From: an uncultured Flavobacteriales bacterium | Lineage (GTDB): Bacteria; Bacteroidota; Bacteroidia; Flavobacteriales_E; Vicingaceae | Direction: 5' to 3' | Assembly (NCBI GenBank): GCA_905479915.1 | Contig: CAJQOH010000003.1 | Span: 1-56,545, forward strand | Length of the DNA: 56,545 nt | Shown here: positions 24,574 to 44,226 of the stretch, in pieces | Position numbering within the stretch: the stretch's first letter is position 1 | How the letters are laid out: the number at the start of each line of letters is the position of its first letter | Position numbers and translations under genes: made by a program | The notes under the pieces: generated by a model | Database searches by the model: none | Told to the model about the DNA's origin: nothing | Seen by the model: only the letters and a program-made list of their open reading frames with translations

Positions 24574-27018
24574 ATGGAAGAAAATAGTTCTTCAGATAAT
24601 ATAAACGAAGCAAAAGCAAGAAAAAGATCAAACTTAAATACAGAGTCTGATCCAATATTGTTTTTTCATTTATTGAAACAACATGCTTTATTCTTTCTAG
24701 TAATCATAACTTGTTGTGTCTGTGCTTCTTTTGTATACTTAAGATATACGGCTCCTATATATGAAGCGAAGTTGGTTTATCAAGTAAATTCTTTGAATAC
24801 AGCCAACAAAGTCTTAAATGTTGGGGGGAATTTTCAGGAGTCAAATAGTTTGGCAAAAGATGTGGAAATTTTAAAGTCAAAGCTTTTGTTTAAGAGAGCT
24901 TTGCATAAGATTCCTGTAGATGTTAGTTATTATAATCAGGGAGAAATTCTAGTCAATGAATTGTATAGAAACTCTCCAATAAAAGTAGATTTTGAAATTA
25001 GAGACTCTTCGGTAATTGGTGAGCACTTTTTTGTAAAATTTATTAATAAAAATACATTTCAATTGGTTTTAAATGAAGTGGTGCTAGGGGAGTTTACAAC
25101 TAATTCTAAAATAAAACTTCCTAAAGTAGATTTAACGGTTACATTGCTAAAAAGTGCTGGGTATGAATCCCTTAAAAATGGGAGTTTGTATTTTAGAATT
25201 AACAATTATGTAGGGTTGGCTAATGCTTGGATTCACAAATTATCCGTTTTTCCATTGAATCATTCAGCTAAAACAATTAACATTTCTTTTCAAGATTATA
25301 ATCCTGTAAAAGCAAAGGATATTGTTACAGCAGTTGCGAATGAGTACATTCTCTATGATATAGAAGAAAGGAGTAAGGGGTCTAAAAATGCACTTCAGTT
25401 TATAGATACACAGCTAGATAGGTATTATAATAAGGTGAAATTATCTGAAAACAAGATTAAGGACTTTCATAAAGTAACAAATTATAACTCCATGGATCGT
25501 TCTTCATCTTATTTTGAAAGAAGTAATAGGTTGGAAAATGATTTGATAGATATTGATTTACAGCTATCGGTATTGAAAGAAGTTAAAAAGTCGATTTCAT
25601 CAAATAGTGAGAGTGTAGATGTTTATGATTTGTTACCTATATTAGAGGGTACAGACTATGCAGGTGGAATTATGTCATTGATTACAACCTTAAAAGAGTT
25701 GCTAATTCAAAAAGAAAATTTACAATTTGAAGTGACTAAGGATAGTGAAATTGTAAAGTCTTTAGATCATAAAATAGAGATTCAACAAAAAATTCTTTTC
25801 GAAAGTATTAATTCGTCTAATGAAAAATTAAAAGTAAAAAGGGATCAATTATTACTTAAGATAAATGAGGTTGAAAATAAATTTCAGAGTGTTCCTGCTG
25901 AAGACTTAGAGTATGCAAGATTGCAAAGAGTACTTTCAATAGATGAAAAGTTTTTTACTCTTTTGATGGAGAAACGAACTGAATATTCAATTTCTGATGC
26001 AGGATATGTTTCTGAGCATATAATATTAGATGTTGCAAGAGTGCCGAAAACACCAGTCTTTCCTAATAAAAATATATTTGTCGCTTTTGGGGTTATAATC
26101 GGATTTGTTTTAAGCTTAATTTTACTGTTGTTTAAGTATATAACAAAAAATACAATTTCCTCTATTGATGAAATTGTAAGGCATTCTTACACAGGGATTA
26201 CTGTTTTAGGAATTGTTCCAAAATACAAGCATGACATACCTGTTTCGCAATTAGTAGTTAATAAGAATCCAAAATCCATTATTGCAGAATCCTTTAGAGC
26301 TATTCGATCTAATATGCAATTTATAGATGGAAGAGAAGGTAAAAAGTTATTAGCGGTAACATCAACTGTATCAGGAGAAGGGAAAACATTTTGTGCTATT
26401 AATATTGCTGGAATTATTGCTTATTCTGGAAAGAAAGTGGTTATCTTGGATTTGGATATGAGAAAGCCAAAGATTCATTTGGGATTTGGAGTTGAGAATA
26501 ATGTGGGAATGAGTACACTTTTGATTAGGACTAAAAAAATATCAGAATGTGTTCATCATAGTGAATTGGAGAATTTAGATTTTATTACATCAGGGCCAAT
26601 ACCACCGAATCCATCAGAATTAATAATTAATGGAGAATTAGATAATATTATAAAAGAGCTTCATACTCAATATGATTTTGTGATTATAGATAATCCTCCT
26701 GTTGGTCTAGTTTCTGATGCAATGGAAATATTAAAAAAAGCAGATTACCCTATTTATGTTTTTAAGAATGAATACTCTAAAAAGTATTTTGTAAATAATG
26801 TTGATAGGTTGATATTGGATAATGGAGTTAAAAAACTATCTATTATATTAAATGCCGTAGAACATGGTAAAAGTGCTTATGGAGGAGGTTATGGTTATGG
26901 TTATGGAGGAGGCTATGGTTATGGAGGAGGTTATGGCTATGGTTATGGTGGTTACTATGAGGATGAACCAAAACAAAAAACGAGTCTATTTAATGGTATG
27001 TTTGGTAGAAAAAAGTAG
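24574..27018 (+). CDS. wzc: Wzc-like chain-length regulator/tyrosine autokinase, second copy
   Basis: 814 residues. A cytoplasmic N-terminus precedes a span near 38-55. The Wzz/periplasmic coiled-coil region runs to about 500, followed by a second span near 505-525. The BY-kinase domain has TSTVSGEGKTFCAIN (Walker A, Lys604), VVILDLDMRKPKIH (Walker A') and FVIIDNPPVGLVSDA (Walker B). The tail (about 770-800) is a tandem Gly-Tyr repeat followed by YYEDEPKQK, giving many candidate phosphotyrosines. It is divergent in sequence from the copy at 8757-11093, and unlike that copy it sits right behind a Wza-like gene. Confidence 0.93.
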   Translation: MEENSSSDNINEAKARKRSNLNTESDPILFFHLLKQHALFFLVIITCCVCASFVYLRYTAPIYEAKLVYQVNSLNTANKVLNVGGNFQESNSLAKDVEILKSKLLFKRALHKIPVDVSYYNQGEILVNELYRNSPIKVDFEIRDSSVIGEHFFVKFINKNTFQLVLNEVVLGEFTTNSKIKLPKVDLTVTLLKSAGYESLKNGSLYFRINNYVGLANAWIHKLSVFPLNHSAKTINISFQDYNPVKAKDIVTAVANEYILYDIEERSKGSKNALQFIDTQLDRYYNKVKLSENKIKDFHKVTNYNSMDRSSSYFERSNRLENDLIDIDLQLSVLKEVKKSISSNSESVDVYDLLPILEGTDYAGGIMSLITTLKELLIQKENLQFEVTKDSEIVKSLDHKIEIQQKILFESINSSNEKLKVKRDQLLLKINEVENKFQSVPAEDLEYARLQRVLSIDEKFFTLLMEKRTEYSISDAGYVSEHIILDVARVPKTPVFPNKNIFVAFGVIIGFVLSLILLLFKYITKNTISSIDEIVRHSYTGITVLGIVPKYKHDIPVSQLVVNKNPKSIIAESFRAIRSNMQFIDGREGKKLLAVTSTVSGEGKTFCAINIAGIIAYSGKKVVILDLDMRKPKIHLGFGVENNVGMSTLLIRTKKISECVHHSELENLDFITSGPIPPNPSELIINGELDNIIKELHTQYDFVIIDNPPVGLVSDAMEILKKADYPIYVFKNEYSKKYFVNNVDRLILDNGVKKLSIILNAVEHGKSAYGGGYGYGYGGGYGYGGGYGYGYGGYYEDEPKQKTSLFNGMFGRKK

Positions 27019-27024
27019 ATGTAA

Positions 27025-27567
27025 ATGAATTTTAGTAGGTTAGAAATTGAAGGTTTAGTTGTGATTGATCCAAATGTTTTTGAAGATGATCGAGGCTACT
27101 TTTACGAATCTTACAATAAGGAAAAGTTTGAGCAAAATGGAATAAAAGATGTTTTTGTTCAAGATAATCAGTCATTATCTCAAAAAGATGTGTTGAGGGG
27201 ATTACATTTTCAAAATCCTCCATATTCTCAGGCAAAACTAATTAGAGTGATTCAAGGGAGTGTTTTGGATGTTGCTGTTGATTTAAGGAAAGATTCCAAA
27301 ACTTATGGTGAACATTTTTTAATTGAGTTGTCAGCAGAAAACAATAAAATGTTTTATATCCCTGCAGGTTTCGCGCATGGATTCTTAACCTTAGAAGATG
27401 ATACTATTTTCTCTTATAAATGTAGTAATGTTTATAATAAAGAGTCTGAAGATTCAATATTGTGGAATGATAAAAGTTTAAATATTGATTGGAGAGTAGA
27501 TAACCCTATTTTATCGGAAAAGGATAAAGAATCTAAAAGTTTTAATGATTACGTAAGTTTGTTTTAA
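27025..27567 (+). CDS. rfbC: dTDP-4-dehydrorhamnose 3,5-epimerase
   Basis: 180 residues, the standard RmlC length. VLRGLHFQNPPYSQAKLIR carries the catalytic His, FYIPAGFAHGFLTLEDD the second half of the cupin, and SYKCSNVYNKESEDSILWND the catalytic Tyr and Asp region. It epimerises C3 and C5 of dTDP-4-keto-6-deoxyglucose on the way to dTDP-L-rhamnose. The rmlA, rmlB and rmlD partners are not in the window. It follows wzc by 6 bp and precedes the initiating transferase by 1 bp, so it belongs to the export operon. Confidence 0.92.
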   Translation: MNFSRLEIEGLVVIDPNVFEDDRGYFYESYNKEKFEQNGIKDVFVQDNQSLSQKDVLRGLHFQNPPYSQAKLIRVIQGSVLDVAVDLRKDSKTYGEHFLIELSAENNKMFYIPAGFAHGFLTLEDDTIFSYKCSNVYNKESEDSILWNDKSLNIDWRVDNPILSEKDKESKSFNDYVSLF

Positions 27568-27568
27568 G

Positions 27569-28642
27569 ATGGATTTTTTTTCATTTAAACATATACTGTT
27601 TTTTTTAGGAGCCTTAATGTTTTCTATATTGATTAACAGTATTATGCTGAGGTTTGTTAAAACACTCGGAATAAGAAATGAAGGTGATGCTGTTATTAGA
27701 TGGAGTGATGATGTAAAACCTGCACTTGGTGGATTAACGTTCTATATCATATTTTTATTATCTATTATTTTACATTCTTTTATATTCTCATATTCAGGAG
27801 ATAATATTGATTTTAAATTTACCGGTATAGTTGGTGCTACTTCTTTAGGCTTTTTGATGGGCCTGTCTGATGATGCTTATAATACTCGCCCGGTATTAAA
27901 GTTTTTAACTCAATTGTTGTGTGCCGGTATTTTGATATACTCTGGAACGTATATCAATATTTTTGAAAGTCAATTGTTAAATTATTCATTAACTATTCTC
28001 TGGGTAGTGGGCTTGATGAACTCAATTAATATGTTGGATAACATGGATGGTATTACGACTATAGTTTCTCTTGTAATAAGCTTTACTATTTTAATTTTGA
28101 TGTTAACAAATAATGATTTTAATAGTTTTGGAACAACAATAGTTATTGGCCTATTGGCATCATTGTTGGGCTTTTTATATTTTAATTGGAACCCTTCTAA
28201 AATGTATATGGGTGATACAGGAAGTCAGTATTTAGGTATATTGTTGGCTGCTTTAAGTATCAATTATTTATGGAACCCTGTAACAACTGAAGAGGTTTCT
28301 ATATCCCGACAGCTATTAATACCACTACTATCTTTTATTATTCCTATTGTTGATACAACAACTGTTGTTATTAAAAGGTTAAGAAAAGGAAATTCACCTT
28401 TTGTTGGAGGTAGGGATCATACGACCCATCATTTATCTTACCTTGGGTTATCTGAAAAGCAAGTTGCTGCTGTAATTGCATTGATTGCAATTGTTTCATC
28501 AGCAATAGTTGTTTATGTGATATCTAATATTAAAGTATGGACTCATTGGCATACTGCAGTTTTTGTTGCGTATTTTTTACTTGTTTTTGGAGTCTTATTC
28601 GCAATAGCTAATAAAAACATCAATAAGTCAACGAATGATTGA
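27569..28642 (+). CDS. MraY/WecA-family polyprenyl-phosphate sugar-1-phosphate transferase
   Basis: 357 residues with about ten membrane spans. Family motifs: LGGLTFYIIF in the first part, MGLSDDAYNTRPVLKF (the Asp-Asp pair), NSINMLDNMDGITT, NWNPSKMYMGDTGSQ and, near the end, the histidine loop RDHTTHHLSYLGLS. It starts a glycan by moving a sugar-1-phosphate (GlcNAc in WecA) from UDP to undecaprenyl phosphate at the cytoplasmic face. It may serve the surface polymer of this operon. MraY itself is less likely, given the polysaccharide context and the WecA-like His loop. Its end overlaps uvrA by 8 nt. Confidence 0.88.
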   Translation: MDFFSFKHILFFLGALMFSILINSIMLRFVKTLGIRNEGDAVIRWSDDVKPALGGLTFYIIFLLSIILHSFIFSYSGDNIDFKFTGIVGATSLGFLMGLSDDAYNTRPVLKFLTQLLCAGILIYSGTYINIFESQLLNYSLTILWVVGLMNSINMLDNMDGITTIVSLVISFTILILMLTNNDFNSFGTTIVIGLLASLLGFLYFNWNPSKMYMGDTGSQYLGILLAALSINYLWNPVTTEEVSISRQLLIPLLSFIIPIVDTTTVVIKRLRKGNSPFVGGRDHTTHHLSYLGLSEKQVAAVIALIAIVSSAIVVYVISNIKVWTHWHTAVFVAYFLLVFGVLFAIANKNINKSTND

Positions 28643-32354: not shown

Positions 32355-33665
32355 ATGAAAAAGTTTATTTTACTATCCACAATTACTCTATTAGCAATAG
32401 GAGTTACTTTTGGTCAAAGTAGTACTTCTAACGGACTAAAATATATCCCTTCAATTGGTGTTCATGGAGGAGTTCTTTCCTATATGGGTGATGTAAAAGG
32501 GGCTCAAGGAACTTCAATTTATTCTTATGCGAAACCAGCATATGGATTTTACTTAGAAAAGAAGATTGGTAGTATTTTTGGAGTTTCGGTTAACGGAACC
32601 TTTGGCAAAATTTCTAAAAGTCAATTGGATGATGATGTGTTCTTAAATTTTGAAACAAGCATCATGAATTTTGATGCAAATTTATTGTTAGATTTTGATA
32701 ATGGAAAAGTGATTAATGAAGGTTCTTTATTTTCTCCTTTTCTATCATTTGGAGTTGGATACCTCGCTTTTGATCCAAAAGGAGATTTGTCTTCTAATGG
32801 AGTAGCGTATAATCATTGGAATGATGGGACAATAAGAGATGTTGCTCAGTATGTAGCTGGTTCAGATACTTCTTCAATAGTGTTATCTAGAGATTACGAA
32901 TATGAATCTTCATTGAAAGATAGTACAGTTAACTATTCAAAAACAACCTTCACTATTCCAATTAGATTTGGATTAAAATTTGAATTGTCAGACCATATTG
33001 ATGCAAGAATTTCTGCAGCTTACATTATAACTATGACCGATTATCTAGATAATGTTGCTGGTGGAGGTAATGATAATATGCTATACACTTCTTTTGGATT
33101 GCAATACAATTTTGCAGCTAGTGTAGATGAGAATGATAAGTATAAAGATTTTGACTTTTCAGATTTAGATAATGATGATAGTGATGGTGATGGAGTACTT
33201 GATCATAAAGATTTATGTCAATCAACTCCAGAAGGAGTGAAGGTTGATAATAAAGGATGTGCATTAGACGGTGATAATGACGGTGTGCCTGATTATAGAG
33301 ATAAAGATTTAAATACTCCAGAAGGAGTTATTGTAGCTATTGATGGAACTACAATAACAGATGAAATGATGGCTGAAAAAGAATTGATGAGAGATTCAGT
33401 AATTACTGAATATAGAACTTTTAAGGCTGAAGATTTATCTGAAAAAGATATAGAAGATATTCAAAAACAGTATGAGGAGGCTAATGGTAGTACTTCAGGT
33501 AATAATACTGGTATTTCCCCAAAATTTAAAGCATTAGATATTAATAAAGATAACTATATATCGGCAAAAGAAGTTACTGGTGCCATTGATGGTTTCTTTG
33601 AAGGAAATAATAATTTATCCGCTAAGGATCTTAATACATTGATAGACTTTTATTTTGATCAATAG
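32355..33665 (+). CDS. Outer-membrane beta-barrel protein with TSP3 repeats and EF-hand-like site
   Basis: 436 residues. Signal peptide MKKFILLSTITLLAIGVTFG is followed by a likely outer-membrane barrel (about 25-260) rich in alternating strands and ending in an aromatic strand (YTSFGLQYNF). A thrombospondin type 3 calcium repeat spans about 270-325 (DSDGDGVLDHKDLC, TPEGVKVDNKGC, GDNDGVPDY). The C-terminus has an EF-hand-like loop LDINKDNYISAKEV near residue 391. The barrel and TSP3 parts are paralogous to the product at 35258-37327: both share NHW/NYW-(N/S)DG(T/S)IR and RDYxYE. It lacks an OmpA peptidoglycan domain. The gene is probably first in an operon with the next, 17 bp away. The function is unknown. 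Confidence 0.78.
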   Translation: MKKFILLSTITLLAIGVTFGQSSTSNGLKYIPSIGVHGGVLSYMGDVKGAQGTSIYSYAKPAYGFYLEKKIGSIFGVSVNGTFGKISKSQLDDDVFLNFETSIMNFDANLLLDFDNGKVINEGSLFSPFLSFGVGYLAFDPKGDLSSNGVAYNHWNDGTIRDVAQYVAGSDTSSIVLSRDYEYESSLKDSTVNYSKTTFTIPIRFGLKFELSDHIDARISAAYIITMTDYLDNVAGGGNDNMLYTSFGLQYNFAASVDENDKYKDFDFSDLDNDDSDGDGVLDHKDLCQSTPEGVKVDNKGCALDGDNDGVPDYRDKDLNTPEGVIVAIDGTTITDEMMAEKELMRDSVITEYRTFKAEDLSEKDIEDIQKQYEEANGSTSGNNTGISPKFKALDINKDNYISAKEVTGAIDGFFEGNNNLSAKDLNTLIDFYFDQ

Positions 33666-33682
33666 CACAATAATAATATGAG

Positions 33683-35206
33683 ATGATAAAACAGTTAATT
33701 CTATTAATCCATGTACTAGGATTATTTTTCTACCAACTAATATTTACAGGAGATATAACTGTTAATCAGAGAGTTCCCGACTCTATCACTCAAGGGAAAG
33801 AAGCGATTATTGAAGTTACAATTAACAAAGGTAATTTACCTGGATTTGCTAAGGTGCAGCAAGTTTTTCCAGCAGGGTTTACTGCGGAACCTATAGAAAC
33901 AAAAGGCGCTACCTTTTCTTTTAAAGATGATAAGGTGAAATTTATATGGATGGCACTCCCATTAGAGGAAGAATTTACTATTTCATATAAAATTACTCCA
34001 AACGAAGAAACTGCCGGAAATTTTACTTTAGGAGGTAAGTTTTCATTTATATCAGAAAGCGAAAGAAAGAATATTGAAATACCTGTAGCTAATTTTGCGG
34101 TAGTAACAGAAGAATTAGTTGCAGAAGTAGTTCCTGAAGAAGAAGATAAAGAGGAGGAAGTTGCTATAGAAGAACCAGTAGAAGAAGAACCAGTAGAAGA
34201 AGAGCTAGTGGTAGAAGAGGTAGAGGAAGAAGAAGTTGTTGAAGAACCTGTAGTTGAAGAGCCTGTTGTAGAAGAAGAAGTAGCTATTGAGGAGCCTGTT
34301 GTTGAAGAGGTTGTAGAAGAAGTCCCAAATGAAGAAGAAAATGTTATAAAAATTGAAACAATTAAGTGTACTAGAGTTGTAGAGAATGTTGAAGAAAGAA
34401 AATATAAAATAACAATTGAAATAAATAAGAATGGGATTGAAGGGTTTGCGAAAATAACAGAAAGTATACCTGAAGGATTTATTGCAAAGGAAGTTGATTC
34501 TAAGGGAGGAGTTTTTTCATTTAAAGAAAATACTGCTAAAATTTTATGGATGGCTATTCCTAAAGAAGAAACATACACTGTTGAATATACTCTAGAAGCG
34601 AATACTTCAACTCTAAATGGAACTTACAATATTAAAGGAGACTATTCTTATTTAGAAAATGATAAAACTAGTAAGTATACTATTGATGGATCTAGTTTTG
34701 ATTTAAATGCTACAGAATTAATTACAGAAGTTACGCCAGAAGAAACTGTAGAAGAGGTAGCTGTCGTTGATGAACCCGTAGTTGAAGAGGTTGTAGAAGA
34801 AGAACCTGTAATAGAAGAAGTAGTTGCTGAATTACCTAAAGAAGAACCAGTAACAGAAGAAATCGTTGAGGAGGATGTGGTTGCAGATAATTCATCTGAT
34901 ATCACAACAACTCCAAACCCTGAAAACGGGGTTACTTATAAAGTGCAAGTAGGTGCAGGACATAAAACCGTTCCAGCAACTTACTTTAAAACTAAGTTTA
35001 ATCTACAAGATAATGTAAGTACTATAAATCATGAAGGTTGGATTAAATATCTCGTAGGTTCATATAATGAATATAAAATGGCAAGAGACAAAAGAAATAA
35101 AGTAAGAAACAATGTTAAAACTGCTTTTGTTACAGCTTATAATGTAGGCACGAGAATTACAGTTCAGGAAGCATTAATGATTTCTAATCAAAAATGGTTT
35201 AAATAA
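33683..35206 (+). CDS. Secreted protein with duplicated beta domain, acidic Glu/Val repeats and SPOR-like end
   Basis: 507 residues. A signal peptide or anchor (about 1-22) precedes two copies of the same domain, at about 25-140 and 230-345. Matching pieces are PGFAKVQQVFPAGFTAE and EGFAKITESIPEGFIAK, then TFSFKDDKVKFIWMALP and VFSFKENTAKILWMAIP. Each copy is followed by a low-complexity stretch of Glu, Val and Pro (about 148-220 and 350-400). The last 90 residues (VTYKVQVGAGHKTVPATYF onward) resemble the SPOR-like units of the next gene. I do not recognise a named family. It is probably a periplasmic linker between an envelope partner and peptidoglycan, by inference from the SPOR-like end. 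Confidence 0.72.
   Translation: MIKQLILLIHVLGLFFYQLIFTGDITVNQRVPDSITQGKEAIIEVTINKGNLPGFAKVQQVFPAGFTAEPIETKGATFSFKDDKVKFIWMALPLEEEFTISYKITPNEETAGNFTLGGKFSFISESERKNIEIPVANFAVVTEELVAEVVPEEEDKEEEVAIEEPVEEEPVEEELVVEEVEEEEVVEEPVVEEPVVEEEVAIEEPVVEEVVEEVPNEEENVIKIETIKCTRVVENVEERKYKITIEINKNGIEGFAKITESIPEGFIAKEVDSKGGVFSFKENTAKILWMAIPKEETYTVEYTLEANTSTLNGTYNIKGDYSYLENDKTSKYTIDGSSFDLNATELITEVTPEETVEEVAVVDEPVVEEVVEEEPVIEEVVAELPKEEPVTEEIVEEDVVADNSSDITTTPNPENGVTYKVQVGAGHKTVPATYFKTKFNLQDNVSTINHEGWIKYLVGSYNEYKMARDKRNKVRNNVKTAFVTAYNVGTRITVQEALMISNQKWFK
34118..34342 (+). repeat. Glu/Val/Pro-coding low-complexity tract, copy 1
   Basis: Imperfect tandem units built from gaa-gaa-cca-gta and gtt-gaa-gag codons encode runs such as EEPVEEEPVEEELVVEE and EEPVVEEPVVEEEVAIEEP. 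A related tract lies at about 34718-34886 in the same gene. Unit length changes in steps of three would keep the frame. Confidence 0.7.
34718..34886 (+). repeat. Glu/Val/Pro-coding low-complexity tract, copy 2
   Basis: Encodes ETVEEVAVVDEPVVEEVVEE and related acidic units just after the second copy of the duplicated beta domain. It has the same composition as the tract at 34118-34342, so domain and tract together form a duplicated block. Confidence 0.65.
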
Positions 35207-35257
35207 CTTTTGTATCTTTAATTTATTATCTTCGTATCAGTTATAGATTAAAACTTT

Positions 35258-37327
35258 ATGCTAAAACGGTTAACATTCTTAATAGTTACACTTTTATGTT
35301 GCACTTCAATATTTGCTGTTGGGGGAAATGATTCTATTGTAGATACTGAAGAAGAGACAGTTAAGGAAATGTTTTATGGACCTACAGTTGGTTTAGGGAT
35401 TGGTATGTTTAAGTTCTATGGTGATATTCTAGATGCAAATTACGGCAACCCTTTAGTGAGTAATATTGGTTATGATCTACATGTAAAACAACAGTTAAAT
35501 CGTTTTTTAACAGCTAAATTCTATGTGCTTTTTGGAACTTTAAGTGCAAATGAAAGATCGGTAAGTAGAAATTTAAATTTCCAATCAAAAATAACTGTTG
35601 GAGGTTTTGCGTTAATGTACAATTTTGATCAGTTTTTAAAAGAAGATAGAATTATAAGTCCTTATGTGTCTTTAGGGATAGAATCTGTAGAATTTCATTC
35701 TAAAACAGATTTATATGATGCCAATGGTGAGGAATACAATTATTGGTCGGATGGATCTATAAGAAATATAGCAGAAAGTGATCCAAATGCATCTAATGCA
35801 ATAATTATTCAACGTGATTATTTGTACGAGACTGATTTAAGAGAATTAAATTATGATGGATATGGTAAATATGCAGAAAGAACATTTGCTATACCATTTG
35901 GTGTAGGAGCAAAAATGCATATGACTAAAAATGTAGATTTTACAATAGGAACGTCAATGCATTTTACGTTTTCTGATGTAATAGATAATATTGATTCAAA
36001 AAGTACTGGTGAAAGGCTAGGAACTCAAACTCAAAATGGAGGTAACGATAACTTTTTAATGACCTCTTTCTCTTTAAGTTATAACTTCTTAAAGCATGAA
36101 AAACATGAAGAAATTGAAGAGTTTGAAGAACTTCCAGACTATAGTGCATATGATACAGAAGATGAAGATGGTGATGGGGTGATTGACTTTGTTGATGAAT
36201 GTCCATGGACTCCTGAAGGGGTAGAGGTAGATGAGAAAGGATGTCCGTTAGATAAAGATGGTGATTTTGTTGCAAATTATAAAGATGATGAGTTAGAAAC
36301 ACGAGATGGAGCTCCAGTTACTCAAAGTGGTGTAGAGATGACAGATGATATGATTTATGAGGCATATCAACGTTATTTAGATTCTACAGGAGCTTTTGCA
36401 GAAGTAGAGACTAGAATTATTGCAGCTGAAAAAAGTAAGAATACTAAAAGATACAAGGTGCAAGTTGGAGAGTTTACTGAAGCTATAGATGCAGAATTAG
36501 TAGATAAGTTTTTAAGTTTACCAGATGTTGAAATTAAAACGTTTGGAGATAGTTTAACAGTTGTTGGTGTAGGCGATTATGATAATTTACCAGCAGCTAT
36601 TCAGCGTAAAGTTCAATTAACAGAAGAAGGCTTTGATGCAGCTATTGTTGTTGAAGAAGAGAAAAATGGAATGTTCAAGTCTGTTGGAGACGAAGCCAAT
36701 AACATGTCTGTAGATGCACCAAGCTCTACTATTGATTCTCAAGGATTAATATTTAGAGTTCAATTGGGAGCATTCTCTAAACGTTTACCAAAAAGCTATT
36801 TGGAAAATGTGAAGAATGTTATGGAAATTAAAGCAGATGATGGTTTATGGAAATATTTGTATACAGGATCATTTAGAACAGTGGAGGAAGCTGCTAAAAC
36901 AAAAATTAGTCTAGCAGTAGATTATGGTGTAGAAGATGCCTTTATTGTATCCTATAAAGATGGTAAAAGAATATCATTATCTGAAGCTGGGGTTATATCT
37001 TCTCAAAAGGAAAATATAAAATCAACTAACGCTAAAAAATATGATAAATCTGAAGTTAAATTTAAAGTACAGATAGGAAGCTATAAAAATCAATTGCCAA
37101 CAGAAGTGTTGAGTAAGTTTATGAGTATGGAAGATGTAGAGCAAACGGAATTGGATGGTGGTTTAAGTAGATATACTGCTGGGGGGGAGTTTTCAACTTA
37201 TGAAGAGGCAGAAGCCTTTAAAAATAAAGTTGCATCTGAAGGACTAGCAGGGGCATTTATAATAGCAACACATAAAGGTGAACTTATCTCTGTGAACAAG
37301 GCTAAGGAGATTTTAGAAGAGGAATAA
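35258..37327 (+). CDS. Beta-barrel protein with TSP3 repeat and three SPOR-like domains
   Basis: 689 residues. The signal peptide (about 1-20) ends near LLCCTSIFA, then comes a barrel (about 35-285) homologous to that of 32355-33665. A TSP3 calcium repeat covers about 300-355 (EDGDGVIDFVDEC, TPEGVEVDEKGC, DKDGDFVANYKDD). Three SPOR-like units begin near 398 (YKVQVGEFTEAID), 497 (LIFRVQLGAFSKRLP) and 600 (VKFKVQIGSYKNQLP), each about 80-90 residues long. SPOR domains bind denuded peptidoglycan glycan strands; if these do too, the protein links the outer membrane to the wall. TSP3 repeats are stabilised by calcium. A terminator follows. Confidence 0.78.
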   Translation: MLKRLTFLIVTLLCCTSIFAVGGNDSIVDTEEETVKEMFYGPTVGLGIGMFKFYGDILDANYGNPLVSNIGYDLHVKQQLNRFLTAKFYVLFGTLSANERSVSRNLNFQSKITVGGFALMYNFDQFLKEDRIISPYVSLGIESVEFHSKTDLYDANGEEYNYWSDGSIRNIAESDPNASNAIIIQRDYLYETDLRELNYDGYGKYAERTFAIPFGVGAKMHMTKNVDFTIGTSMHFTFSDVIDNIDSKSTGERLGTQTQNGGNDNFLMTSFSLSYNFLKHEKHEEIEEFEELPDYSAYDTEDEDGDGVIDFVDECPWTPEGVEVDEKGCPLDKDGDFVANYKDDELETRDGAPVTQSGVEMTDDMIYEAYQRYLDSTGAFAEVETRIIAAEKSKNTKRYKVQVGEFTEAIDAELVDKFLSLPDVEIKTFGDSLTVVGVGDYDNLPAAIQRKVQLTEEGFDAAIVVEEEKNGMFKSVGDEANNMSVDAPSSTIDSQGLIFRVQLGAFSKRLPKSYLENVKNVMEIKADDGLWKYLYTGSFRTVEEAAKTKISLAVDYGVEDAFIVSYKDGKRISLSEAGVISSQKENIKSTNAKKYDKSEVKFKVQIGSYKNQLPTEVLSKFMSMEDVEQTELDGGLSRYTAGGEFSTYEEAEAFKNKVASEGLAGAFIIATHKGELISVNKAKEILEEE

Positions 37328-37350: not shown

Positions 37351-37386
37351 AAAGAGGGGTTAGAAATTTTCTAACCCCTCTTTTTT
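37351..37386 (+). terminator. Rho-independent terminator after the barrel/TSP3/SPOR locus
   Basis: Stem AAAGAGGGGTTAG (37351-37363) and CTAACCCCTCTTT (37371-37383) with loop AAATTTT and a following T run to 37386. It lies 24 nt after the stop of the 689-residue gene. Confidence 0.92.
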
Positions 37387-37685: not shown

Positions 37686-40600
37686 CTACTTAGTGTAAGG
37701 TAATTTAAATGTTTTCATAATCCCATTTCTATCAGAAACGTTTACAAAATAGATTCCAGAGCTATAGTTATTAAGGTCAAACTTAATCTGATTGGAATTA
37801 ATTTTAGAGGCATAAATATTTTCTCCAAGAGCATTGCTAATGAAGATGAATTGATATTCAGAATCTCCTAAATATAAATTTATAGCATTATTGTCAATCC
37901 ATGATTTAACTTTATTACTATTAATTTCATTGATACTAGTTGTAGTTCCTGTAACTGTTATAAGACGGTTATAATTTTCACTGCAATTATTATTAATGCT
38001 AGCAGTTAAATTAACCAAATAAGTTCCTGCTTGGGTATAAGTATGTGTTGGGGAAGAAAGGGTAGTATTGGAGCCATCATTAAAATCCCATAAATAAGTT
38101 GTAGCCTTTGTAGACTGATTATTAAAAGTAATGTTCCCACCATTATTTAAGTAAACAGTATCACTAGTAGTTGTATAATAGCTTGTAATTAGGTTAGGAG
38201 AATTTACAGTAATGTTATTTGTAGTATTACCACAAACAGCATCCGTAGTTTCTATTGTGTAATTTCCTGCAGCAATGTTTAGTAGAGAGTCGCTGAATAT
38301 ATTTGTGCTACTAGAAATAGTGCTTCCATTGCTATCTTTCCATGTGATATCAAAAGTGTTTGTACTGTTTTTGGTGTAAACAATTTTACCATCTAAACTT
38401 CCATTACAATTAGCATCGGTTACAGCAATATCAACTGGAGCTCCAACGTGCAATAGGAAACGAGCTGTAGTGGTAGTGTCATGTATAAAAGTTGTAAAAG
38501 AGCTGTCTGTATTTAAGTTGTAACTAATTCCTGTAAATAAATCTTCTAATATCAAGCAGTTAGAATTACTAAAATTGGTTACATTTTCAATGCTAATAGT
38601 ATGAAGTCCGCTAATTCCTGTAAGTATTTTGATAGGAATATCAATCTCTTGTTTTGGTAATTGGTTAATAGAGAACTCTTCATTATTTGTGATACTTGAA
38701 ACAACAGGTATGTTAGTATTTACTGACGATATTTTTTGAGCATCATATTTAGGGTCAAAATTGTTAGTAGCATTAGCTTGGAAGTTAATAGCTAATTCAT
38801 CAGCTCCAAAATTGTTTCTAGCTTTAATTCTTAAAGGAAACACTTGAGCAACTTTAAGAAAAGCACCATCATTTGTTGATTTACATGCTTCAGTTAACTG
38901 TATACCAGCGCCACTTCCTGTGGCTTGCACCCAAATAGCTTGAGAAGAAGCAATATATCTTGATCCTCCGTTTGTTCCTACTCCTCCTGAATAACTAGCA
39001 AACTGACTTAAGTCAGGGTTCCAAATGTAAACTGCATCATTAATATTTGTTTTTACGATGTTAGGATTAGGAGAATCCCAATCGATAGTAGAAGCATATG
39101 GATTTCCTAGTAAGTTCCATCCATCATCATTCACTAGACCAGAGTTGGTATAGGTCATAGGTAAATTAATCGTTCCAACATTTGGAGGACCGGTAATATC
39201 AATAGTAAAAGGTTGAGTTCCTATAATTGTATCGCCACACCAAACCCATACACCAACGCCCACAGGAATTGAGTTGGTTGCATTTGTAGCTGCATTAAAC
39301 CCATTGTCTTGGGTTCCGGTTACAGTTTCATCGTAAAAATAAATTGACGGCCAAGGGCTTGCAACACTAGGCCAGTTAGGTGAAGTAGCACCAGTATATC
39401 CACTTGTCTCAAAATCATCATTAAAATCAGCTAGAGTAGCTCCACTTACCGCTGAAGTTAAGAATCTCCATTCCGTAGCACCTGCATCTACATAACGTTC
39501 CATAGTCATATTGTTGGAAATAGGGTTGAAAAAAGTACAGCTGGATGTTGTATTAAACACATTTGTACCAGTAGCGGGAGTTGTTCCATCTGAAAAAATA
39601 ACAGATCCTCCTTGTGATAGGGTGTATGAGTTTTCATTTTCATAAGAACCGGCAGTATAATTTAATTGAACGTTAGAACCAGGTGAAGCAGAAAATTCAC
39701 TTGTAGAATTGGATCCGACAGCAAAATACGAGCCTTGTGTAACACCATCAATTAAAACAGTAATAAAGCCACCATCCCAACTGTCTCCATAAGAGTCAGT
39801 CATGTCTAATACGTATAAACATTTTGGAGTTATTTCATTAATTCTTCCGGTACCAGAGGCGTCAGACATTATTGTTAAAGAATTATTAGTGTTGAAAGAT
39901 CCACTCCCAATATGAATGTCTAATGTTCCATAAAGGTTTATACTACCTGTGGTAATAGAAGCTCCATATGTGTTATCAATAGTTAAGTTATACAGATCTT
40001 GGTTTGTTCCACTATTTATATTATTGGCAGCGTCTCCTTTTAATGTTACTGTTCCAGAATTTGCCGTAAAAGTTCCGTTAATGGTCCAATCTTCATAAAT
40101 GTCAATGTTGTTGGTTCCACTAATAGTTAGACTAGCTCCGCTATTAATATTTAAATTTTTACATTCGGCTCCTGAGGATCCTATAGAAGGCATACGTGGG
40201 GCTGTATTTGGGATAGTAACATCCATATCTGAATCAGGAATTCCAGCATCCCAATTAGCTGCATCAAACCAATCAGTACTGGTAGATCCATTCCAGTCAG
40301 ACTCTGTATCGAAAATAAGTTGAGCTTGTGGTTTATTTGTATTTAATGTTGCAGGAGTTGTTCCACATATACTCCCTGTATTATCATCACGAGAATATTT
40401 ATAACCATCAGTAGTACTATAAATCCTACAACGTCCAGATGCGCTATAATTTGGTTGTACTTGAGACCAGCAAATTTCTACTGCAATATTTCGGTTCCCA
40501 TTCCAACTAAAAGGGGTGTCAAACACAATCATGTCATAGCCCCCGGCAGTAGGAGCATATGTAAATGCATTTTTAACAGTGGTCCATCCACCTGCTCCCA

Positions 40601-40922
40601 AATTATTGCTTACATCAGTAGCATTAGTATGTTTTATCTTAATAGTATATCCAGGTATGTCATAAATTGGCTGACTAGTAATATAAAAACCCAATTGAGT
40701 CAAATCCTTAGCTCCACTGGCTCCAGCGGCATTTATTTCTGCTGCAGTATAAATAAATTGGCTAACTTGTCTACGATAGTAAATATTTACAGGGCTAGCT
40801 GTGTAAAAACCATTTATGCTTGTTCCAGAACCTAGTTGTATGATTTGTGCGTTTGAATCAGAAAAACACAAGATAATAATCAGCGTTAATAAAAAGCTTT
40901 TTACAATACTTGATTTAACCAT
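37686..40922 (-). CDS. Large T9SS-secreted protein with SprB-like repeat and PKD domain
   Basis: About 1078 residues from the ATG at 40922. This start gives a well-formed signal peptide (MVKSSIVKSFLLTLIIILCF, then SNAQ). The same frame can begin at a GTG at 40982, which adds 20 hydrophilic residues before it and seems less likely. A lectin-like N-terminal half with many Asn/Thr/Gly strands is followed by a SprB-repeat-like unit (VTDANCNGSLDGKIVYT, GNYTIETTDAVCG) and a PKD domain (YLWDFNDGSNT, PTHTYTQAGTYLVNLTAS). The C-terminal domain of about 75 residues ends IYFVNVSDRNGIMKTFKLPY, a type A T9SS sorting signal. It is probably a surface adhesin or structural protein. Confidence 0.82.
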   Translation of the reverse strand: MVKSSIVKSFLLTLIIILCFSDSNAQIIQLGSGTSINGFYTASPVNIYYRRQVSQFIYTAAEINAAGASGAKDLTQLGFYITSQPIYDIPGYTIKIKHTNATDVSNNLGAGGWTTVKNAFTYAPTAGGYDMIVFDTPFSWNGNRNIAVEICWSQVQPNYSASGRCRIYSTTDGYKYSRDDNTGSICGTTPATLNTNKPQAQLIFDTESDWNGSTSTDWFDAANWDAGIPDSDMDVTIPNTAPRMPSIGSSGAECKNLNINSGASLTISGTNNIDIYEDWTINGTFTANSGTVTLKGDAANNINSGTNQDLYNLTIDNTYGASITTGSINLYGTLDIHIGSGSFNTNNSLTIMSDASGTGRINEITPKCLYVLDMTDSYGDSWDGGFITVLIDGVTQGSYFAVGSNSTSEFSASPGSNVQLNYTAGSYENENSYTLSQGGSVIFSDGTTPATGTNVFNTTSSCTFFNPISNNMTMERYVDAGATEWRFLTSAVSGATLADFNDDFETSGYTGATSPNWPSVASPWPSIYFYDETVTGTQDNGFNAATNATNSIPVGVGVWVWCGDTIIGTQPFTIDITGPPNVGTINLPMTYTNSGLVNDDGWNLLGNPYASTIDWDSPNPNIVKTNINDAVYIWNPDLSQFASYSGGVGTNGGSRYIASSQAIWVQATGSGAGIQLTEACKSTNDGAFLKVAQVFPLRIKARNNFGADELAINFQANATNNFDPKYDAQKISSVNTNIPVVSSITNNEEFSINQLPKQEIDIPIKILTGISGLHTISIENVTNFSNSNCLILEDLFTGISYNLNTDSSFTTFIHDTTTTARFLLHVGAPVDIAVTDANCNGSLDGKIVYTKNSTNTFDITWKDSNGSTISSSTNIFSDSLLNIAAGNYTIETTDAVCGNTTNNITVNSPNLITSYYTTTSDTVYLNNGGNITFNNQSTKATTYLWDFNDGSNTTLSSPTHTYTQAGTYLVNLTASINNNCSENYNRLITVTGTTTSINEINSNKVKSWIDNNAINLYLGDSEYQFIFISNALGENIYASKINSNQIKFDLNNYSSGIYFVNVSDRNGIMKTFKLPYTK

Positions 40923-40982
40923 GGAACGGTTATTTTTTTCAGGTAGAGTAAAGCTCTTCTTATGTTCACTTTTATTTGTCAC

Positions 40983-42360: not shown

Positions 42361-44226
42361 CTATTTAGATATAATGATTTTTTTTAGGGTAGATTTGTTC
42401 GATTCATTATTGATAAAGCGAATAATGTAAACCCCATCAGCAACATTAGAGATGTTTAATTTATCACTGAAATTAGATTCGGTTTCAATAATTATTTTAC
42501 CATAAATATCTAATAGCTGAATATGATAAGAGTTGTTAGGGATATCAAAATAAATAGTTTCTGATGTTGGGTTAGGGTAAACTTTAAAATCATCTTTAAG
42601 ATCATTTTCATTTATACTTACTGTAGGATCAGGAGTACTTCCAAAAACTGGTCGAAGCATTAAAGAACCACTAAAAGAGGCATTTTGCCAAGTTCCAACA
42701 GAGTTATAAAAGACCTTGTTGCTATTGTCTGTATTTACGTCCCAACCAACATTTAAGAATTCAGAAGAAATTTTTTCCCATCCAAAATAATAAGTTCCAG
42801 GAGTAAGGTATAATGGTATGTCTAAATTATAATTCAAAAATTTATTAGTACTAGAGTAAGTAGGACTGGTAAACAGTGTTGCTGCCTGAGAATAAACCTC
42901 TGCTTCAGGATTTAAACTGCTCCATACTTTTAAACGAAAAGTTTGAGCACTTAAATCGTTCATTATTGGATTAAAATAGATTTGAAAAGCCTTAAGAGTA
43001 TCGCTCTTTTTGATGTTAAATTCATGTGCTAATTTAGATCCAATACCTTGTACACCATAACCTTGTTCTGCGCTTCCATCATCGTAAGCATAGTAGGAAC
43101 CGAATACCTGATAGGAATTTACAGTATCATTATCTGGCTTTATATCAGCAGGTGTAATAGTAAAGTAATTTTTTATTTGAAAAACCTTTGTTGATGAAGC
43201 TTCCGAGGGGAAAGAAAAATCATTAATAGGAGTATTGTATACGGCCTGAAGTTCAATTAGGCTTGAGTATGCTGCTGCATTTTTAGAGGATGCTATAGTT
43301 GGATATAGTTCAAGCAATGGACCAGCACCATTATTGTCTATTACTTCATATTTATAAAATACCGCATAAGCAGAACTATGATTGTTTCTGTAAGTAACAT
43401 CCATAGCAGTATTCATTGAGCCAATTGTATCAGTTAAATAGTGTGCCCATGGCATTGCGCTGAATTCTTGTAACATGTTGTGATGATTGGTAATAAAAGA
43501 AACATCATTTAAAGCGGTATCAGCATGGTTACGATTGTCATTTAGATAAATATAATCGATATGCCAGTGATCTACATTTCCTGATAATGTTGCCCAGTTT
43601 ACAAATCTAAATCTAAATTCATTGTTATGAAAAGCGGTATCTACAGGAACCATAACCTTTTCGAAAGGTTGGTTCGGCATACCTGGCATTCCCCAAACTC
43701 TAACCCAATTGCTATCAGATTGTCTAAAAAACTCTAATCTTATGCTGTCTTGTGTTTCAGGCTTGTTTCCATTACCTTGGGGTTGATAATAAAAACTCAG
43801 AAAGACACTATCAATTATGGTTGTTAAATCGATTTGTTTAGATGTAAGACTATCAGCTGTGCCATACGCAGTAGGGTTTGTGAAATTATATGGAGTACCT
43901 GAAGCATCTAAACCATCAAGCGTTGCAACACCATAAGTAATCGGGTTGTCTGGGAAATTAGAATTAATGTAAACATCCATATCTTCCCATAGGTTTGCAT
44001 CTGGAAAAATATAGTTTTGAGAAAAGTCATCAATAAAAGGAAGCGATAAAGCTGTTTTCTTAGATTGTTTATTGTTTGATAAAAAAGGTGAGTTAGGGTT
44101 GTTCTTATTGGCGTTGTAAAACTCTCCTAGAGCATTATTTCCGCTAAGTTCTAGTAAAGTATCTTGAGCTGAAAGATTACTACATAAAAATAGAATGCTT
44201 AACGATATGAAGAGTTGTTTAATCAT
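42361..44226 (-). CDS. T9SS type A sorting-domain surface protein
   Basis: 621 residues. Signal peptide MIKQLFISLSILFLCSNLSA is followed by Gln and a beta-rich extracellular body of unrecognised family, with repeated jelly-roll-like segments (LFFRQSDSNWVRVWGMPG and SGNVDHWHIDYIYLNDN). The last 75 residues, from FKVYPNPTSETIYFDIP to STLKKIIISK, are a typical T9SS type A sorting domain. It is therefore secreted across the outer membrane and anchored or released at the surface. It overlaps the PASTA gene by 4 nt (ATGA) and precedes rluD by 2 bp. The substrate or function is unknown. Confidence 0.88.
   Translation of the reverse strand: MIKQLFISLSILFLCSNLSAQDTLLELSGNNALGEFYNANKNNPNSPFLSNNKQSKKTALSLPFIDDFSQNYIFPDANLWEDMDVYINSNFPDNPITYGVATLDGLDASGTPYNFTNPTAYGTADSLTSKQIDLTTIIDSVFLSFYYQPQGNGNKPETQDSIRLEFFRQSDSNWVRVWGMPGMPNQPFEKVMVPVDTAFHNNEFRFRFVNWATLSGNVDHWHIDYIYLNDNRNHADTALNDVSFITNHHNMLQEFSAMPWAHYLTDTIGSMNTAMDVTYRNNHSSAYAVFYKYEVIDNNGAGPLLELYPTIASSKNAAAYSSLIELQAVYNTPINDFSFPSEASSTKVFQIKNYFTITPADIKPDNDTVNSYQVFGSYYAYDDGSAEQGYGVQGIGSKLAHEFNIKKSDTLKAFQIYFNPIMNDLSAQTFRLKVWSSLNPEAEVYSQAATLFTSPTYSSTNKFLNYNLDIPLYLTPGTYYFGWEKISSEFLNVGWDVNTDNSNKVFYNSVGTWQNASFSGSLMLRPVFGSTPDPTVSINENDLKDDFKVYPNPTSETIYFDIPNNSYHIQLLDIYGKIIIETESNFSDKLNISNVADGVYIIRFINNESNKSTLKKIIISK

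Follow-up and report, generated by a model that had tools for sequence, protein, structure and literature searches.

A three-gene envelope block of Flavobacteriales, with barrel, TSP3 and SPOR modules and alternative C-terminal tails, as a probable outer-membrane-to-peptidoglycan tether

In this study, we analysed three adjacent open reading frames (ORFs), here called A, B and C, in the first 56,545 nucleotides of contig CAJQOH010000003.1 from an uncultured Flavobacteriales bacterium of the Vicingaceae (assembly GCA_905479915.1); this whole stretch is referred to as the window. A-B-C is a real, widely kept envelope gene block, and it is fairly likely, in our judgement, that it tethers the outer membrane to peptidoglycan. 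The domains, the folds of B and C, the gene order and its conservation were computed directly, as were the alternative tails and the confinement of one of them to genomes with B. The first-pass annotation of this DNA had proposed a three-gene locus forming a calcium-dependent bridge to peptidoglycan, and all three ORFs were found exactly where it placed them, on the same strand (Table 1). The bridge stands as the best reading, and its calcium part has as its basis the conserved acidic residues described below. Findings that would have spoken against it, namely SPOR units without a SPOR match or fold, or genes scattered in related genomes, were largely absent; the exceptions are B, which scores under the SPOR cut-off, and A, which is not always kept. 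Two observations go beyond that annotation: the tails are alternatives used on more than one protein family, and the EF-hand tail is found only together with B.

First, C combines a membrane barrel with a stalk and three SPOR units. A simple rule gives a clear signal-peptide cleavage site in 21 of 22 C relatives, and the barrel has an OmpA-type fold. Indeed, the best OmpA row in a fold search of the AlphaFold2 model was 9a2m, likewise a model, of E. coli OmpA (Z 17.2, root-mean-square deviation (rmsd) 3.8, 176 residues aligned), and crystal structures matched at Z 16.3 (1p4t) and Z 15.7 (1bxw). Both the C barrel (76.3 bits) and the A barrel (48.6 bits) match the PorG model NF052316 under its cut-off of 130, and the homology proposed for the two holds; by this homology to C, the A barrel would be of OmpA type as well. 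The assignment of thrombospondin type 3 (TSP3) stalks to A and C holds for the residue pattern, with D302, D304, D306, D310, D313, C315 and C329 of C invariant across 22 rows and the Asp and Cys positions of A invariant in 19 rows, but less so for the scores: Pfam TSP_3 (PF02412) gives 14.2 bits on C and 16.5 bits on residues 273-293 of A, below its cut-off of 25, with matches at E<=0.01 in 5/22 C relatives and 12/19 A relatives. A search for OmpA_C (PF00691) in A and C gave no match up to E=1.

The three SPOR-like units expected at the end of C were found. Pfam SPOR (PF05036) scores 46.7 bits on C, over two stretches, against a cut-off of 21, its profile matches all 22 C relatives at E<=0.01, and the AlphaFold2 model contains three units at residues 399-467, 497-567 and 600-672, where 10-residue blocks average pLDDT 69-88. 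These units and the one modelled at residues 417-487 of B all show the SPOR order strand-helix-strand-strand-helix-strand; in fold searches of the whole B and C models, the listed rows were filled by beta-sandwiches or the barrel, not by SPOR units, which says nothing for or against these units. When the units were isolated, the SPOR profile matched 29 of 51 sequences at E<=0.01, and a profile of the pooled units found the solved SPOR domain of CwlC (E=3e-5) and, weakly, that of FtsN (E=0.043). The FtsN family model also matched residues 588-625 of C weakly (19.3 bits, cut-off 107.65). For the SPOR-like unit proposed in B, the fold topology and the profile comparisons are favourable: the profile-profile probability is 98.9 and 98.7 with C units 2 and 3, only 9.4 with C unit 1, and 81.9 with three other SPOR domains of the same genome. 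C unit 1 is diverged, reaching 6.4 with those three domains and 98.3 with the pool of other units.

As ligand positions, the RlpA complex with glycan and FtsN mutagenesis indicate a Gln together with a neighbouring backbone position, a Trp or Leu of strand 3 and nearby basic residues (PMC6895207). Across 25 rows of the B unit, Q422, A425, W453 and K455 are invariant. C units 2 and 3 each keep the Gln in 12/12 and a Lys or Arg in 11/12 proteins; the counts for all four unit types cover 16 of 25 B units and 12 of 22 C proteins (11 for unit 1, L040 being left out). The SPOR unit of B has the most complete ligand site and, because the Gln and basic positions are kept in them, C units 2 and 3 and the B unit are probable wall binders. 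Wall binding itself would follow from what is established for SPOR domains.

B also carries the duplicated beta domain that had been noticed earlier. Its two beta-sandwiches are copies of one another (profile-profile probability 99.9), both are modelled with pLDDT mostly 93-96, and they resemble pilin, cohesin, adhesin and similar domains (Z 11-13 over about 110-120 residues). The cohesin 6kgc aligns with a B sandwich at Z 11.5 (rmsd 2.7, 120 residues), and pilins score higher. The two acidic linkers were likewise found, and are disordered in the model. At the N-terminus, a strict cleavage rule is passed by 3/25 and a loose rule by 21/25 of the B relatives; B is thus likely to be held by an uncleaved hydrophobic anchor.

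The resemblance of the sandwiches to pilin and adhesin domains, together with the loss of ligand residues in C unit 1, would also suit surface or adhesion proteins whose SPOR-like units bind proteins instead of glycan. We consider this quite improbable, as three of the four unit types keep the Gln without exception and a basic residue almost always. Moreover, the C barrel, if oriented like OmpA, would put its tail in the periplasm, and a Pfam scan of A, B and C for a type IX sorting tail gave no match.

The block is widely conserved. Among 27 loci found, L058 and L059 were dropped as apparent matches to the acidic linkers only; the remaining 25 lie in named contigs, mostly from metagenome assemblies of Flavobacteriales, with Vicingus or Vicingaceae in the title of three. 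C directly follows B in 23/25 (L052 and L053 were counted as lacking C, and L053 is not cut by a contig end), while A precedes B in 16 of the 22 loci with enough flank and is not beside B in the other 6. B matches below E=1e-40 were found in 44 of the 46 genomes from the order to which the window belongs, and the other two gave only weak ones. Thirty-one wider loci, under 28 family labels and with at least four repeating genomes of the 25-locus set, have a same-strand barrel gene of the A/C type beside B in 25 cases. In 295 sampled genomes of the class, whose relatedness keeps the Fisher value for B and C from being a clean probability, B was present in 148 (E<=1e-15), C in 131 (E<=1e-60, a count that may include barrel-TSP3 paralogues without SPOR units) and both in 128; C lies directly downstream of B in 60 of the 63 genomes with both positions among the matches listed. 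The claim that the three genes are kept together therefore holds for a B-C core and only in part for A. In the window, a gene of the lysine-decarboxylase/LOG type and one that is presumably uvrA lie upstream of the block; these two do not always adjoin the block in other genomes, so it is the block and not its surroundings that is kept. In a second draw, across the phylum, B was found in 2 of 296 genomes (292 of them at least 90% complete). Among the 294 without B, the 20 listed all belong to the same class, so that this draw says little on the range outside the class.

Two unusual arrangements were seen among these loci. At L041:1653-7448, two B-like genes stand side by side and C is split into two ORFs of 503 and 187 amino acids (aa). 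At L110, L112 and L113 (families f46, f4 and f10), clusters of five barrel genes surround a shorter, one-sandwich B, and some of the barrels have two EF tails.

The partner gene A has a clear signal-peptide cleavage site in 19/19 relatives by the simple rule, and a search for a wall-binding domain in A found none. The EF-hand-like loop that had been read at its end is well kept, position 1 (D) and position 12 (E) of the loop being invariant in 23/23 aligned tails, although the Pfam EF-hand match in A itself is below its cut-off. EF-hand_6 matches 20/23 tails at E<=0.1, and Dockerin_1 (PF00404) gives two weak matches out of 23 (best E 0.009), none of them with the window's own tail. Calcium binding by the stalks and the tail would be consistent with the conserved acidic residues of TSP3 and of this one EF loop.

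The two kinds of tail are alternatives. Of 90 barrel ORFs, 45 are EF-tailed, 44 are SPOR-tailed, one has neither tail and none was assigned both; the SPOR-tailed ones have three units in 37 cases, two in 6 and one in 1. The total includes seven ORFs of four loci with repeated ORF lengths (L091-L094 as L042, L048, L043 and L050), and without these loci the split is 42 EF, 40 SPOR, one neither and none with both (83 ORFs). The single ORF with neither tail (L112) runs off its stretch, and one of the EF assignments (L053) comes from a partial match of 23 residues. An exception is L161, which combines a barrel and TSP3 with two EF tails and a weak SPOR match. In some families, several barrels carry the EF tail.

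Barrels are not the only carriers. In the window's own genome, three PD40-propeller proteins related to PorE/CHU_0125 (under the cut-offs for those) end in SPOR units: L121:3-6602 (G000:C21), L124:2752-5835 (G000:C22) and L129:2527-4782 (G000:C21). The first, with 2200 aa in the stretch and its start missing, has long acidic repeats, and OmpA matched none of the three up to E=0.01. This exchange of tails, parallel to that in C, counts in favour of the tether; of its two models, CHU_0125, which has OmpA_C, maintains outer-membrane integrity in Cytophaga (PMC5891637). In other B-positive genomes, PorE-like proteins keep OmpA_C together with an EF tail at the very end or 1-2 residues from it. Among the non-barrel EF-tailed ORFs, 10 of 16 were scanned with Pfam, from loci chosen for long or unusual frames and not at random; nine carry both PD40 and OmpA_C, and the remaining one has MORN repeats. 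The choice between SPOR units and an EF tail is seen in more than one protein family. From its presence on both barrel and PD40/OmpA_C proteins, it follows that the EF tail is a portable C-terminal module.

The distribution of the EF tail is one-sided. Its profile matches 86 of the 295 genomes at E<=1e-6, all 86 of which have B, and 0 of the 147 B-negative genomes; by family label, it occurs in 27/33 B-positive families and 0/39 others. In the phylum draw, the only EF-tailed genome of the 296 is the window's own. Since the tail is found only in genomes with B, the B sequence may encode a docking hub for EF-tailed envelope proteins. The one-sided dependence may reflect a docking tag and its receptor; shared ancestry in one clade would give the same pattern. 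A fuller proposal, which we put forward only tentatively and regard as rather doubtful, is that B is a wall-bound hub, a periplasmic counterpart of a scaffoldin, whose sandwiches would capture the portable EF tail in a calcium-dependent manner, the wall being reached via a SPOR tail or via B. The captured tail would be common to barrel-TSP3 proteins, PorE-like OmpA_C proteins and other exported proteins. This proposal was made because of the co-occurrence, the receptor-like fold of the B sandwiches and their separation by long linkers.

For the tether, we can propose the following scheme. C would be held in the outer membrane by its OmpA-type barrel, and its TSP3 stalk, probably stiffened by calcium, would lead to the three SPOR units, which would hold the glycan strands of peptidoglycan, probably by means of units 2 and 3. 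C would then work as an OmpA/OprF protein with SPOR units in the OmpA_C position, a step proposed because of established SPOR and OmpA-type biology. B would be exported and probably anchored by its uncleaved hydrophobic N-terminus, its sandwiches borne on long acidic linkers that end in a SPOR unit, so that the same wall would be bound. A would provide a second barrel, whose EF-hand tail most likely reaches the wall indirectly, via B, and other EF-tailed envelope proteins may also reach it through B.

Such a tether could be enriched at the division site, because denuded glycan is enriched at the septum (PMC6895207). A reading compatible with the tether is that the barrels are drawn to denuded glycan at the septum through SPOR units, with B acting in an FtsN-like way, and that the outer membrane is thereby made to follow constriction. 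Division or morphogenesis is where known SPOR proteins act, and the plan of B (hydrophobic N-terminus, disordered linkers, C-terminal SPOR) is that of most SPOR proteins (PMC6895207). This role is possible, with the odds somewhat against it: no division gene was seen among seven window neighbours scanned with Pfam, B matched no NCBIfam model, FtsN included, up to E=1, and the genome has other SPOR proteins, one with HU-CCDC81 domains.

The PorG scores of the barrels raise another question, that of an accessory type IX secretion module in which the barrels, as PorG paralogues, would give secretion or gliding complexes a support on the wall. The SPOR and EF tails also occur on PorE-like proteins, and SprA is present in 146/148 B-positive genomes; it is also present in 286/295 overall, so this says little. 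We find such a module unlikely. The scores lie far below the PorG cut-off, a PorG above it (174.8 bits) is encoded elsewhere in the genome, and 140 genomes have SprA without B. A core component of the type IX system was rejected on this last count.

Several observations weigh against the tether, or against parts of it. The Pfam SPOR score of B is 15 bits, under the cut-off, the SPOR profile matches 9/25 full-length B relatives at E<=0.1, and a profile of B units only finds no SPOR chain in the PDB up to E=10. The anchor of B depends on a heuristic signal-peptide rule. C unit 1 keeps the Gln in 4/11 and a basic residue in 0/11 proteins, its ligand positions being lost. C is missing at its threshold from 20 of 148 B-positive genomes, no barrel is beside B in 6 of the 31 wider loci, and 62 of the 148 B-positive genomes have no EF tail, so A is not obligatory. 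With 20 OmpA_C matches in the window's own genome, the tether is not the sole one there. Finally, PorE (PG1058), the other model for the exchange seen in the PD40 proteins, was reported as not essential for outer-membrane integrity in Porphyromonas (PMC5053529).

Table 1. Positions in the window of genes A, B and C, their parts and the hairpin that follows them
Feature	Position	Strand	Remarks
Gene A: signal peptide, PorG-like beta-barrel, TSP3 stalk, C-terminal EF-hand tail	32355..33665	+	436 aa
TSP3-like acidic stalk of A, about residues 273-329	33171..33341	+	TSP_3 16.5 bits; invariant Asp/Cys
EF-hand tail of A: one canonical loop D-x-N-x-D...E, then hydrophobic segment ending FDQ	33507..33662	+	alignment
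Gene B: hydrophobic N-terminus, two beta-sandwich domains, two acidic linkers, SPOR unit	33683..35206	+	507 aa
Beta-sandwich domain 1 of B	33746..34111	+	pLDDT mostly 93-96; pilin/cohesin-type fold
Acidic linker 1 of B, tandem E/V/P codons	34115..34340	+	pLDDT mostly under 50
Beta-sandwich domain 2 of B	34352..34711	+	model, fold search, profile comparison
Acidic linker 2 of B	34715..34925	+	disordered in model
SPOR unit of B, invariant NHEGWIKY	34928..35191	+	SPOR topology, pLDDT blocks 87-90
Gene C: signal peptide, PorG/OmpA-like barrel, TSP3 stalk, three SPOR units	35258..37327	+	689 aa
Barrel of C, about residues 40-278	35375..36091	+	fold-search Z 17.2 (OmpA model), 16.3 (NspA)
TSP3 stalk of C, about residues 301-355	36158..36322	+	invariant Asp/Cys; TSP_3 14.2 bits
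SPOR unit 1 of C, diverged ligand positions	36446..36691	+	Pfam SPOR 23.2 bits
SPOR unit 2 of C	36743..36991	+	model, profile comparison
SPOR unit 3 of C	37052..37312	+	model, profile comparison
Terminator-like hairpin	37351..37383	+	15 bp stem, 3 nt loop, T run, 23 bp after C

The window covers the beginning of contig 3 in a genome of 3.57 Mb. The gaps between the genes are 17 bp (A-B) and 51 bp (B-C). A-B-C is plausibly one transcription unit, because a terminator-like hairpin follows C and none was found in the A-B and B-C gaps; the scan returned four terminator-like sites in the region on both strands, with 1.7 expected from shuffles. Further along the window are two probable type IX secretion cargo genes, at 37686-40982 and 42361-44226 (-), the first with PKD domains and a weak Por_Secre_tail match (23.6 bits for a cut-off of 27) and the second with a sorting tail above cut-off (47.1 bits). 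Polysaccharide-type genes at 24574-28642 (+) encode a Wzz/tyrosine-kinase type protein, a dTDP-4-dehydrorhamnose 3,5-epimerase and a family 4 glycosyltransferase. Elsewhere in the genome, a 386-aa SPOR-like protein (L123:7470-8627, minus strand; 19.6 bits, under the cut-off) is encoded divergently beside a PorG-like barrel of 363 aa (L123:8742-9830, plus strand; 39.7 bits), possibly a second, simpler pair.

The usual explanation for attachment of the outer membrane is a link of the OmpA_C, Pal or Lpp type. If our reading is true, a barrel with tandem SPOR units would be another hold between membrane and wall, one that reads denuded glycan and not stem peptides. The one-sided pairing of EF tail and B offers a candidate docking code for the periplasm, open to direct testing in many genomes of the class. 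We found no description of the locus in the literature searched (titles, abstract starts and passages, with few subscription papers and no bioRxiv preprints), and the near-absence of B from the largely complete phylum draw may explain this. What is new is the arrangement of the SPOR domains, which that literature does not describe, the split of EF and SPOR tails on barrels, and the EF tail that also ends OmpA_C proteins and that is confined to genomes with B. Read as an outer-membrane tether, A-B-C is a new variant, with an unexpected docking hypothesis.

Among known systems, PorG of the type IX secretion system has a barrel homologous to those of A and C, but A and C score under its equivalog cut-off, carry additional stalks and tails, and coexist with a PorG above that cut-off; membership was rejected on score. 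The cohesin-dockerin pair resembles our block in the cohesin/pilin-type fold of the B domains and in clients with a small EF-type C-terminal tail found only alongside B. It differs in that the tail is a canonical EF loop and not a dockerin, that pilins outscore cohesin and that docking to B is proposed only. Membership was rejected here too, on the weak Dockerin_1 matches and the higher pilin scores, and the comparison is kept for how B might work. PorE (PG1058) and CHU_0125 are also envelope proteins that end in a peptidoglycan-binding domain, and their relatives carry SPOR units in the window's genome or the EF tail in other B-positive genomes; in place of a barrel, however, they have TPR and a PD40 propeller (PMC5053529, PMC5891637). 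FtsN, DamX and RlpA share with B and C a C-terminal SPOR domain with the Gln and basic ligand positions, and the anchor-linker-SPOR plan is also that of B, to which B adds two beta-sandwiches; C has a SPOR triplicate on an integral barrel. Finally, OmpA and OprF have in common with C the OmpA-type barrel, an acidic TSP3-type stalk and a periplasmic end for wall binding, predicted in the case of C. While the window's genome also encodes a protein with TSP3 and OmpA_C (L133), neither A nor C has an OmpA_C match, and in C three SPOR units take the place of that domain.

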